Part shown: positions 1-3,390 of the stretch, piece after piece | How positions within the stretch are numbered: the first letter of the stretch is position 1 | How the letters are laid out: every line of letters starts with the position of its first letter | From: Halorubrum saccharovorum DSM 1137 | GTDB taxonomy: Archaea; Halobacteriota; Halobacteria; Halobacteriales; Haloferacaceae | Length of the DNA: 36,621 nucleotides | Assembly (NCBI RefSeq): GCF_000337915.1 | Contig: NZ_AOJE01000025.1 | Span: forward strand, 45,648 to 82,268 | Direction: 5' to 3' | Position numbers and translations under genes: made by a program | Notes under the pieces: generated by a model | The model's database searches: none | What the model was told of the DNA's origin: nothing | Seen by the model: only the letters and a program-made list of their open reading frames with translations

Positions 1-38
1 CTCACTCATCGAAATCCCGTTGAAATCACACCCTCGAT

Positions 39-460
39 TCCCATGGGATCACCGACCCCCCACATTTTGTTTTTAGACGGGGTCGCGCTCAGAAACTCGT
101 CACCCCTCACACCGACCACCAGATCCAGTAGCTCCAGTACAAATCCATGGAATCCCATGGGATCACCAATACACACGTTCACCACCACTTCACTCCATTC
201 ACACGCCGAAATCTCGTCTGAAACACCCCTCGATTTCCATGGGATCACCGACCCCCCACATTTTGTTTTTAGACGGGGTCGCGCTCAATACTCAGTGAGA
301 TTCACGGGGAACAACTCACCCCATGAGATCCCATGGGATCACCAATACACACGTCCACAGCCACCTCACCACTGTCACGCGCCGGAAACTCGTCTGAAAC
401 ACCCCTTGATTCCCATGGGATCACCGACCCCCCACATTTTGTTTTTAGACGGGGTCGCGC
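39..460 (+). repeat. Left repeat array: five palindromes and three hairpin boxes
   Basis: Palindromes centred on CCATGG lie at 39-48, 153-162, 235-244, 329-338 and 411-420. Those at 39, 235 and 411 are each followed 4 bp later by a nearly identical 36-bp box (53-88, 249-284, 425-460). Each box reads CGACCCC, then an AT-rich middle with ATTTTGTTTTTAGA, then GGGGTCGCGC, so its ends can pair as a stem. The palindromes at 153 and 329 are instead followed by CACCAATACACACG. The two classes alternate, and the 153/235 and 329/411 pairs are both 82 bp apart. Confidence 0.9.
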
Positions 461-561
461 GATATGACTCAACCCCCCTCGCTCAACAACTCAGCGAAGT
501 CGGCGGCAGCTGTCGCAGGGCTGTCGCTGTCACGACCCTGCTGTACTACTCGCGGGCAACT

Positions 562-628
562 GTTATGCTTACTATTAATAAAAAAATTAAAAAATAGAAT
601 AGATAGTTAATATAATGGTTATACACAG
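562..628. other. AT-rich core, candidate unwinding element
   Basis: This is a run of almost pure A and T, with runs such as AAAAAAATTAAAAAATAG, lying between the left and right repeat arrays. Nothing else in the window is as AT-rich. Its central position between inverted repeats suits a duplex-unwinding element. A promoter cluster is possible, but no gene starts next to it. Confidence 0.55.
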
Positions 629-736
629 AAACCCTTAAGTAGATATGTCCCGTACATTACCGTAGAGGGTCTTACCGACAGACCTACCGCACGGAGTGGG
701 GTAGGGTCGTCCCTCGACCCCCTCCGCCTTTTCCTC

Positions 737-1162
737 GCGCCCCCCGCTAAAAACAAAATGTGGGGGTGCGAGATCCCATGGGATTTCGGGGACGTGAAAC
801 TGCTTATTTTGGGGGTAGAACGTCGAACACACGTCACAGTACGGAGTACCGTGATCCCATGGGATTCCATGGATTGAGGTGTTTCGACTATTCACCGAGA
901 GTATTTTGAGCGAGATATGAACCGTGATCCAGTGACTTTGGCCGAGATTGAGTTACATCACGAGATCCGTCTGTGAGGTGCGCGCGACATCAGTCACTGC
1001 GTCACTGATCAGGGGGTGTTCGTGTTGAGCGCGCGACCCCCGCTAAAAACAAAATGTGGGGGGTCGGTGATCCCATGGGATTACGGGGTCGTGAATCTGG
1101 TTATTCTCGGGGTAGACCCGTGTTTCTATGCCGCAAGTGGGGAGTACGGCAATCCCATGGAA
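737..1162 (-). repeat. Right repeat array: inverted palindromes and two hairpin boxes
   Basis: These are inverted copies of the left array. Hairpin boxes lie at 737-770 and 1031-1066 and read GCTAAAAACAAAATGTGGGG through their middles. Each is followed by a palindrome (774-783, 1071-1080). A second palindrome follows at 855-864 and 1153-1162, that is 81 and 82 bp further on. The 855 copy also carries the extra TTCCATGGAT arm seen at 143-152 on the left. The arms of the boxes have drifted (CGCCCCC against GGGGTGCG; CGACCCCC against GGGGGGTCG) but can still mostly pair. Confidence 0.88.
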
Positions 1163-1166
1163 TTTC

Positions 1167-1225
1167 CACTGGAGTCACTGGACCCACTGGAGCGGGGGGT
1201 ACCACTGGATCTGGTGGTTCACTGG
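1167..1225 (+). repeat. CACTGG iterons upstream of the 1301 gene
   Basis: Five CACTGG cores start at 1167, 1176, 1185, 1203 and 1220, with spacings of 9, 9, 18 and 17 bp. A GGTGGTT motif is repeated at 1213 and 1230. They end about 45 bp before the TATA box of the next gene. Short regularly spaced direct repeats like these are typical operators of ribbon-helix-helix proteins and typical plasmid iterons. The next gene encodes an N-terminal ribbon-helix-helix, so autoregulation is a reasonable inference. Confidence 0.6.
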
Positions 1226-1268
1226 ATCCGGTGGTTAATTTCACCTGAAATCCGCAACTCAACAAGGC

Positions 1269-1275
1269 ATATAAG
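1269..1275 (+). promoter_or_regulatory. TATA box of the ribbon-helix-helix protein gene
   Basis: ATATAAG lies 26-32 bp before the ATG at 1301, the spacing expected for a leaderless haloarchaeal transcript. There is no Shine-Dalgarno sequence before the ATG, which agrees with leaderless translation. Confidence 0.65.
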
Positions 1276-1300: not shown

Positions 1301-2743
1301 ATGACCTCAATCCAAACTACAGTCGATGACGACATCGCGGACGCATTTACTCAATGGGCCGAAGAGAATTACAAAAGTAAAGCCGCTGCACTCCGCGATT
1401 ACATCAAAAAAGCCCCAAAAGGCGAATCCGTTCACAGCGCCACAACAAACGAAGACCTCGAAGACCAGATCGAAGACCTCCGCGACACGATCGAATCTGG
1501 GTCGATCAACGTTCAGAATCAGACTCATCAGAATCAGGAACAGAACAGTGCTGAATCCGAAAATGAAGACGTGGATCTGATCGAGATGTACGACCCGGAT
1601 GTTGACGCAGAGGAGTTGCCTGACGACCTCACCCCGGAACACGACGATGAATCGTGCGTGCGCAAAGACATCCTCGAATCTGTAGTCAAAAAGTGGGAGG
1701 AAACCGGTGAAGTCCCCGAGCTGAATCCGACGCACATCAGCACGGATCCCCGTCCGCAAGGCGGTGACACACCCGTTGCGCTCGGCATCGGGATTATTCA
1801 GCACCGATTCGAGAACACGATCCAGCACTCCTCGATTGTGGACGTGTTAGCGTCTGATAACGGTGGATTAGGGTACACGAAGCAGTACGTCCGGGAAAAC
1901 GGGCACGCTCACGACATTGCAGGCACTATGGTGCCTGTCCCCGGCGAGGATGGCGTGTACATCGTGGATGACGACGTTAAGTCAGCCGCACTCACCCAAA
2001 CCGAACACGAAATCGAAACTGAAGTACAGGCGCTCGAAAATGCGGATGATTGGCGGTCGTTCGATGCGTCGATTCGGAAGCTGGATGACCTCCTGAAAGA
2101 CCTCCGGACGATTAAGCAGAACATGGGTGTGACGAGTCAGATCAGCGAGGACGATGTTAATGACGACATCATAGCTGCTGGCCGTGATCTCAGCGAAGAC
2201 CTGTTCTTCGACGCGCTCGCGGACGCTGAAGGCGTTGTTGAGGAGTTTGAGGAGCGGTTAGAAGAGATGCGTGACGCAGATACGTATCCGGAGTACGTGG
2301 CTGCTGACCCCGACTATAACCGTGTAATCAACGCTAAGGCCACGGTCCAAAAGCCGGGCGATCATGATGACCCATACGGTGCGTTATCGCAAGACGATCT
2401 CAGCGCCGCTGACGACGTACAAGACCGGTTTGAGGAGGTCAGAGGGCAAATCAAGAGAGTTCGGTATCACAAACAGGGCATGATTGAGGAATCCGAAAAA
2501 CGCCGCGTTGAGTACCGCGAACTGGGTGTTCAGAACCTCGTGGACATCGCGATGGAAACAGAGGATCTGAGTGTCGCTGAATCGGCAGTGAACGCTATTG
2601 ACGACCTACACGCCTGCAAACACAGCACTACACGACAGACGTATGCTGATCTAACGATTGAGGTGGATTACCAGTCGATGCGCAGTAAACTCACCCGTAA
2701 TTTCCGGCAGTTAGAGAGCTGTGATTGGGGTCTTTGGGGTTAG
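1301..2743 (+). CDS. Ribbon-helix-helix / coiled-coil protein, candidate replicon protein
   Basis: I do not recognise the family of this 480-residue acidic protein. Residues 4-38 look like a ribbon-helix-helix DNA-binding domain: a short strand (IQTTVDDD), then two helices including AEENYKSKAAALRDYIKKA. Residues 40-115 are a polar, acidic linker. Residues 155-225 could be a winged-helix-like unit (GYTKQYVREN, then a hairpin around GVYIVDD). Residues 232-275, 300-325 and 370-410 are charged helices likely to form coiled coils. There is no Walker A motif, no HUH rolling-circle motif and no primase or recombinase signature. It starts leaderless behind its TATA box and CACTGG iterons, with the palindrome array further upstream. 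Its lower GC and mixed third positions differ from the chromosomal genes to the right. By position I infer an initiator, partition or copy-control protein of an integrated plasmid. Confidence 0.8.
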   Translation: MTSIQTTVDDDIADAFTQWAEENYKSKAAALRDYIKKAPKGESVHSATTNEDLEDQIEDLRDTIESGSINVQNQTHQNQEQNSAESENEDVDLIEMYDPDVDAEELPDDLTPEHDDESCVRKDILESVVKKWEETGEVPELNPTHISTDPRPQGGDTPVALGIGIIQHRFENTIQHSSIVDVLASDNGGLGYTKQYVRENGHAHDIAGTMVPVPGEDGVYIVDDDVKSAALTQTEHEIETEVQALENADDWRSFDASIRKLDDLLKDLRTIKQNMGVTSQISEDDVNDDIIAAGRDLSEDLFFDALADAEGVVEEFEERLEEMRDADTYPEYVAADPDYNRVINAKATVQKPGDHDDPYGALSQDDLSAADDVQDRFEEVRGQIKRVRYHKQGMIEESEKRRVEYRELGVQNLVDIAMETEDLSVAESAVNAIDDLHACKHSTTRQTYADLTIEVDYQSMRSKLTRNFRQLESCDWGLWG

Positions 2744-2939
2744 GTTTCTCAGTTCTCTGTTGTTAGTTCTCTTTCTGTTTTTCGTTCCCGTGACTGCGAA
2801 CAGACTCACGCAGTCACTGGGTTCGAGTTCGGTTTCGGATCTCGATGAGATTGAGGACATGGCAGACGATGCTGTGGAGGCCGTTGAGGACCATGCTGAG
2901 GGGAACCGTGACGATGTTGTTGGTGGTGTTGAGGCGTAG
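2721..2939 (+). CDS. Possible small secreted or membrane-anchored acidic protein
   Basis: A 72-codon frame with a GTG start overlaps the end of the preceding gene by 23 bp. Residues 8-24 are strongly hydrophobic (FLSSLLLVLFLFFVPVTA), like a signal peptide or one membrane helix. The tail is acidic and protein-like (SDLDEIEDMADDAVEAVEDH). The overlap would suit translational coupling to the 1301 gene. No family is recognised, and the inverted repeat GTGACTGCG/CGCAGTCAC (2790-2817) lies inside it, so the frame may be fortuitous and the DNA may serve as a binding site. Confidence 0.3.
   Translation: MIGVFGVRFLSSLLLVLFLFFVPVTANRLTQSLGSSSVSDLDEIEDMADDAVEAVEDHAEGNRDDVVGGVEA
2790..2817. repeat. Inverted repeat GTGACTGCG / CGCAGTCAC
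   Basis: Two perfect 9-bp arms (2790-2798 and 2809-2817) are separated by 10 bp. The right arm runs into GTCACTGG (2813-2820), the octamer also found at 1174-1181 and 3010-3017 and reversed at 929-936 and 2949-2956. The arm GTGACTGCG recurs at 2952-2960. It may be a protein site of the element or a transcription-end hairpin after the 1301 gene. Confidence 0.5.
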
Positions 2940-3318
2940 GCGGGTCGGCCAGTGACTGCGGGTGGGGTGACGGCGTCCGTCTTTTCTGCGGTGTGCGGTG
3001 AATCGACGAGTCACTGGCCTCGGATGATCGATCCGAATGATGGCCTCGGATGAGCAATCAGAAACGCATCTCGATGGCTCTCCCGATTTACTCGACCCCA
3101 TAGATGCTCAGTTCTTCATCGAACCCGTTCCGTCTCAAAGCGTCACTCGACCCCAAATACTAACATGAATGCCGTTTTGGTTCTTCCCGAATCGACAGAC
3201 GGCGGCGACCGTCGTCACGGAGCGTGACGAAATCACCCCTCGAAATGAACCCGAAATACTACCGATCGCTACGCTGTCCCGTGGTTTGCTATGTATCCGC
3301 ACCAAGAGGGTGTGTGAC
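2940..3318. other. Gene-free end of the accessory block
   Basis: No convincing gene is visible. The stretch holds two more GTCACTGG sites (2949-2956 reversed and 3010-3017) and a 13-bp direct repeat TGGCCTCGGATGA at 3015-3027 and 3041-3053. It runs up to the 3' end of tRNA-Arg. I found no integrase here; if the element has one, it lies to the left of the window or was lost. Confidence 0.5.
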
Positions 3319-3390
3319 GGGCGCGACGGGATTTGAACCCGCGGCATCTTGGTCCGGAACCAAGTGCTCTGTCCGCTGAGCTACGCGCCC
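3319..3390 (-). tRNA. tRNA-Arg (anticodon CCG)
   Basis: Read on the minus strand this is a full 72-nt cloverleaf. The acceptor GGGCGCG pairs with CGCGCCC, the D stem is GCTC/GAGC, the anticodon stem CTTGG/CCAAG encloses the loop TTCCGGA (anticodon CCG), and the T arm is GCGGG-TTCAAAT-CCCGT. No intron and no encoded CCA. Its 3' end faces the low-GC block, which is where integrative elements that target tRNA genes would lie. A TTTAA-like box at about 3417-3421 lies 27-31 bp before the mature 5' end and may be its promoter. Confidence 0.95.

Follow-up and report, generated by a model that had tools for sequence, protein, structure and literature searches.

The window analyzed here, a 36,621-nucleotide stretch of the Halorubrum saccharovorum DSM 1137 draft genome (C25:45648-82268), carries near its left end a gene for a 480-residue protein that is probably the replication initiator of a mobile pR1SE-like plasmid-vesicle plasmid (apHPV) integrated at a tRNA-Arg gene, with window 1-1250 as its origin (Table 1). 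We observe the gene itself, its order of domains, an upstream repeat array that is symmetric around an AT-rich core, the recurrence of such an array upstream of distant relatives, and a location within an integrated apHPV. An earlier note on this DNA had singled out the protein as the leading candidate for a new initiation or partition factor, and our analysis supports this view, while without bench data it remains a candidate. We favor initiation over partition because of the melting-core layout, the Orc/Cdc6-like position of the gene, and the absence of ParA from the element. How replication starts in many haloarchaeal plasmids, viruses, and integrated elements is unexplained, and 7 of 41 apHPVs have no recognized replication protein (PMC10818511). 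A protein family from which the origin can be predicted would identify initiator and origin jointly for many unannotated elements, would supply a compact shuttle-vector replicon, and would show that an Orc-like origin layout can be served by a non-AAA+ protein.

Table 1. Features of the putative origin, the proposed initiator gene, and the integration site, in window coordinates.
Feature	Position	Strand	Basis
Left-arm palindromes, ATCCCATGGGAT and near copies (starts 38, 152, 234, 318, 328, 410)	38-421	.	Mismatch search
T-element CCCCACATTTTGTTTTTAG, left arm, copy 1	58-76	+	
T-element, left arm, copy 2	254-272	+	
T-element, left arm, copy 3	430-448	+	
Candidate unwinding element: 60-bp AT-rich core (87% AT)	564-623	.	
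T-element, right arm, copy 1 (inverted)	747-765	-	
Right-arm palindromes (starts 773, 854, 1070, 1152)	773-1163	.	Mismatch search
T-element, right arm, copy 2 (inverted)	1043-1061	-	
Three 17-bp repeats CACTGGATCtGGTGGTT, candidate operators	1185-1236	+	Family D6
TATA-like CATATAA, 27-33 bp before ATG	1268-1274	+	Read from sequence
Proposed replication initiator gene, 480 aa	1301-2743	+	ATG open reading frame; family relatives
RHH domain, residues 1-45	1301-1435	+	Profile A6 vs CopG/NikR RHH chains; AlphaFold helices 10-37
Acidic linker, residues 46-95, 30% D/E	1436-1585	+	Composition
Conserved core, residues 96-235 (Y97-D-P motif, "LNPTH..TDPRPQG", HTH-like helices)	1586-2005	+	Alignments; model
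C-terminal helical part, residues 236-480	2006-2740	+	Low-confidence prediction
Right attachment repeat ACGGGCGCGACGGGATT, 17 bp, tRNA 3' end	3317-3333	+	Matches C25:9730-9746
tRNA-Arg(CCG), integration site	3318-3390	-	

The open reading frame recognized in the earlier note is a genuine gene, retained by relatives at 22-34% identity, and its product is acidic (pI 4.25, with Asp and Glu accounting for 23% of residues). The spacing of the TATA-like element from the ATG, as read from the sequence, suggests a leaderless transcript. An N-terminal ribbon-helix-helix (RHH) domain had been claimed by eye, and the family profile A6 bears this out, matching CopG/NikR RHH structures among PDB sequences over positions 1-69 (6iya, E = 0.0015, the best; 7etr, 0.0024; NikR, 0.017; CopG, 0.13), so that membership of the RHH superfamily is met at the level of this domain; the AlphaFold model has two helices within residues 10-37. 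The acidic linker is likewise confirmed, with just 2% K/R beside its D/E content. The conserved core is harder to place. A possible winged helix had been suggested, and winged-helix proteins do recur among the top matches of the model, but the assignment is a guess that remains unproven because no match is significant (Foldseek E at least 0.81, best Z 4.1), and fold searches of the PDB and of viral models returned no significant match to the protein. The predicted model of residues 1-260 has a mean pLDDT of 77, with blocks from residue 91 onward mostly at 81-93, and a secondary-structure order of H-E-H-H-H-E. As for the long coiled coils, a helical conformation is indeed predicted for the last 245 residues, but at low confidence, and the coiled coil rests on a poor model; an early prediction from three rows (pLDDT 44) was used for rough helix content only. 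A coding-like stretch in another frame lies 3' of the gene (window 2745-2940, ending ...SVSDLDEIEDMADDAVEAVEDHAEGNRDDVVGGVEA*) and may be a remnant C-terminus or a small gene.

Walker A is absent from the protein and so is HUH, both as originally read, the single HAH (residue 202) not being conserved among relatives. There is no nuclease, ATPase, or primase motif, and therefore no DNA nicking or ATP use by known chemistry; this counts against the initiator reading, as does a core fold without a significant match. A confident match to a known family with another role had been named as grounds for refutation, and none emerged. Direct scans with Pfam, NCBIfam, and PHROGs gave only one weak PHROG match, in the RHH region, and no Pfam, NCBIfam, RepH, Orc/Cdc6, or HUH family matches the protein. 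Membership of RepH, which could not be judged by eye, can now be set aside: the two proteins have no sequence similarity (BLASTP E = 1.0), RepH matches phrog_17376 at 4e-46 and HVO_A0261_N weakly while the 480-residue protein matches neither, and profile A6 has no match on pR1SE, a plasmid that does carry RepH. Orc1/Cdc6 identity is excluded by the absent Walker A and the lack of a Cdc6 Pfam match, and an HUH rolling-circle Rep is excluded as well. The Pfam scan gave no match to DUF7845 of Rep-Arvir (the presence of this model in the library is unconfirmed), and the protein has no KHYYM. We found no description of such a replicon or protein in the libraries or open-licence literature searched, although an account in a subscription journal could be missed.

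The protein belongs to a widespread, unnamed haloarchaeal family, for which iterative profile searches recovered about 17 divergent relatives across the Halobacteria. The closest is WP_012660207.1 (789 aa) of Hrr. lacusprofundi pHLAC01, at 34% over residues 100-257; a third member was found in genome G326, and these three proteins form a strongly supported clade (100/99) in which the array is always present. Iterated profiles added members first in G359, G276, and G342 and afterwards in G198, G249, G292, G195, G145, G332, G402, G241, G187, and G033, recovered only the C-terminal part of one in G403, and brought in, at E = 2.4e-14, WP_276257161.1, which is encoded on a circular Halomontanus rarus apHPV. 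Past G326, the first matches had only weak support (per-genome E = 3e-5 to 2e-4), and with a later profile most new members had E values between 8e-22 and 5e-8. Membership of the remote relatives is supported because the RHH domain, the Y-D-P and INPDHV motifs, and the HTH-like helices occur in a common order; the least certain rows are the most distant (G187, G033, G241). No relatives emerged when genome and viral contigs were scanned with peptide patterns, which is explained by the low identity and does not prove absence from viruses, and tblastn against phages found none either. Relatives, too, occupy integrated elements: integrases lie near the members in G359, G249, and G195, and tRNAs beside those in G359 and G145. 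Two relatives (L032:5550-6872 and L069:5127-7176) directly adjoin tRNA genes (tRNA-Val and tRNA-Gln), as though the module habitually lands at an attachment site.

The palindrome array beside the window gene, also described in the earlier note, is real and far exceeds chance expectation. Allowing up to 2 mismatches, ATCCCATGGGAT has 11 matches in the window (10 of them inside the array) against 0.6 expected, and its exact sites in the 3.42-Mb genome number five, all within the array. Five copies each of CCCACATTTTGTTTTTAG and, in window 1-1250, of the T-element compare with 0 expected. Three T-elements left of the core point right and two right of it point left, and the array is therefore mirror-symmetric around the AT core. 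The "phased operators" correspond to the three 17-bp repeats, which are present, while their operator role is only a candidate one. A GC-rich, hairpin-capable stretch (window 660-735, GGGTCGtcccTCGACCC) sits between the core and the right arm and has no match in Rfam, which identified the tRNA alone. Directly before the window, at C25:45647, the scaffold has a gap of one N whose flanks overlap by 101 bp, because of which one more array unit may exist, and the linkage of the array to the upstream element spans this gap, a caveat against our preferred explanation. Single Ns at C25:41999, 42233, 44871, and 45647 are scaffold joins with flanking overlaps of 51-115 bp and probably represent unmerged contig ends.

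That homologs sit beside repeats holds for 11 of the 16 testable members, the window one included, and fails for the other five, which thereby fulfill the refuting condition named in the earlier note (homologs lacking repeats beside them). We aligned the upstream kilobase of each member to its own reverse complement, with shuffles and downstream regions as controls, and two long opposed arms scored 24-107 in these 11 (window, 58; pHLAC01, 49; G326, 24; the other eight, 76, 33, 107, 70, 41, 35, 24, and 53), compared with shuffle maxima of 15-21 and downstream regions that gave no arm signal in the same test (12-18). The AT maximum of the upstream kilobase falls between the arms in 10 of the 11 array-bearing members, with an inter-arm gap of 15-50% of the upstream kilobase, and counts of exact 11-mers reach at least 13 in 7 members versus 1 of 1,573 background windows. 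Neither RHH-only proteins without the core nor pNRC100 repH have an excess of upstream inverted arms. Arms are absent upstream in G342, G198, G402, G241, and Halomontanus, and tree labels give no sign that array loss clusters. The Halomontanus gene (L080:41842-43083, NZ_CP119801.1), annotated as a hypothetical protein, is beside a Cdc6 gene and has instead, on its downstream side, a borderline pair of inverted arms around an AT-rich center. Both the array missing in 5 of 16 relatives and the Cdc6 gene on the Halomontanus plasmid count against the initiator reading.

The window gene occupies the right-hand end of a segment of low GC content (52-54%, vs about 70% in the flanking chromosome) that stops at the tRNA-Arg(CCG). 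A tyrosine recombinase (Phage_integrase, E = 4e-8; C25:10084-11091) is encoded just inside the distant copy of the attachment repeat, and from the paired ACGGGCGCGACGGGATT repeats and this recombinase we conclude that gene and array make up one end of an integrated element of 39 kb. Between integrase and array are an S8 peptidase (Peptidase_S8, E = 3.5e-37) and a 789-aa ATPase that matches ORF25 of pR1SE (tblastn, 36.9% over 97%) and of 13 other haloarchaeal plasmids, and by these two genes the element qualifies as an apHPV. The ORF25 ATPase and S8 peptidase are core genes of apHPVs, which are thought to spread in self-encoded vesicles, and two apHPVs have been reported from this strain (PMC10818511). 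The C25 element shares with pR1SE and other apHPVs these genes and a conserved gene order, but it is integrated at a tRNA gene and is without the MCM, Cdc6, or RepH genes that most apHPVs are reported to have (PMC10818511). Searches of the element for MCM, Cdc6_C, and ParA-type AAA_31 gave no match, and no Orc/Cdc6 gene adjoins the array, there being no Cdc6_C match on contig C25. A second, divergent apHPV in the same genome (C51:14420-20982), with an ATPase 41% identical, has a Cdc6 gene nearby, and by gene content the two elements, though related, seem to differ in their replication modules. In pR1SE and the C51 apHPV the Orc/Cdc6 gene follows the ORF25 ATPase at a downstream distance of about 3-4 kb, and in the C25 element the RHH gene begins 5.4 kb downstream; the C51 cdc6 enters this comparison by gene position only, with no arm score. 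The simplest reading is that one replication module has been replaced by another. Segments of pR1SE (L006:1-1458) and of pHLAC01 (L078:46121-48129) have WP_049933966.1 and an ISH3 element in common, next to the pHLAC01 relative, and pR1SE therefore has the neighborhood DNA and not the relative itself.

In characterized haloarchaeal origins, an AT-rich unwinding element is flanked by inverted repeats and located next to the gene for the initiator (PMC3119063, PMC3528665). The window meets this ORB-type layout with its inverted repeats, AT-rich element, and adjacent gene, and as in orc1/cdc6-adjacent ORB origins the core lies beside the gene for the protein presumed to bind there, though there are no Orc/Cdc6-binding data. 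The protein itself differs from Orc/Cdc6 in not being AAA+ and in its RHH N-terminus. RepH (Halobacterium pNRC100; pR1SE ORF1) is a further parallel: it acts in plasmid replication, the role proposed here, and about 650 bp upstream of the gene there is an AT-rich stretch, but it lacks both similarity and upstream arms, as described above. Whether the family constitutes an unnamed initiator class, with an RHH domain and an HTH-like core but no ATPase or nuclease, that adopted an Orc-type layout and is interchangeable with Orc/Cdc6 across mobile elements of the Halobacteria is a proposition that we consider evenly balanced.

If the protein is an initiator, RHH dimers and the HTH-like core would bind palindromes and T-elements in both opposed arms, and the helical C-terminus could bridge the bound arms, straining and opening the AT-rich core. 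Host replication proteins would then be loaded, the MCM helicase being encoded elsewhere in the genome. Protein bound to the arm and 17-bp repeats by the leaderless promoter may in addition limit its own synthesis. DNA binding, melting, helicase loading, and autoregulation are all inferred, since the evidence is entirely comparative and there are no functional data.

Several proteins that bind plasmid centromeres contact DNA through an RHH fold, and ParG/Omega-type proteins are short. The protein could thus be imagined to bind the array as a centromere for segregation, as ParG or Omega would, and both the profile-supported RHH domain and repeat arrays beside the gene suit this function. We regard partition as unlikely: neither the element nor contig C25 has a ParA-type ATPase match, an AT-rich core amid opposed arms is the layout of an origin, and 480 residues is long for such a protein. 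CopG and NikR have the same N-terminal domain, but the window protein is ten times longer than CopG, with an additional conserved core and helical C-terminus. It is similarly improbable that it is only an autoregulated transcription factor or copy-control repressor, with the arms as mere operators and replication left to host Orc1/Cdc6 or another element protein. In this case the RHH domain, the 17-bp repeats and right arm abutting the promoter, and nine or more Cdc6 genes in the rest of the genome that could work in trans would all be accounted for, but an operator needs no arms 300-800 bp upstream that are mirror-symmetric about an AT core. The arms might also be imagined as ORBs of the host. 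Rolling-circle initiation in which Y97 nicks DNA at the array is very improbable, for although Y97 is the sole column invariant across all 16 aligned members and tyrosine-dependent initiators unrecognizable by sequence were recently found in haloarchaeal viruses (Rep-Arvir, PMC13107129), it sits in Y-D-P at the edge of the acidic linker, no metal-binding histidines are conserved, and the predicted model is mostly helical and neither RRM- nor TBP-like. Rep-Arvir, of SNJ2-like viruses, is also an unrecognized haloarchaeal initiator on integrated elements, but its catalytic Tyr is in KHYYM and its hairpin is downstream, whereas the array here is upstream, symmetric, and AT-centered (PMC13107129).

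An initiator with its own repeats would also make co-divergence of the two testable. The arm repeat sequences vary from member to member, and the palindromes of the window (ATCCCATGGGAT) and of pHLAC01 (TTGTACAA) differ. The window T-element nevertheless aligns to the pHLAC01 arms on both sides and in the same orientation, with scores of 14 and 12 against a background maximum of 13 in 29,782 windows. Retention of the T-element with a changed palindrome suggests, by inference, two DNA-binding modules, of which one is conserved and the other evolves fast.
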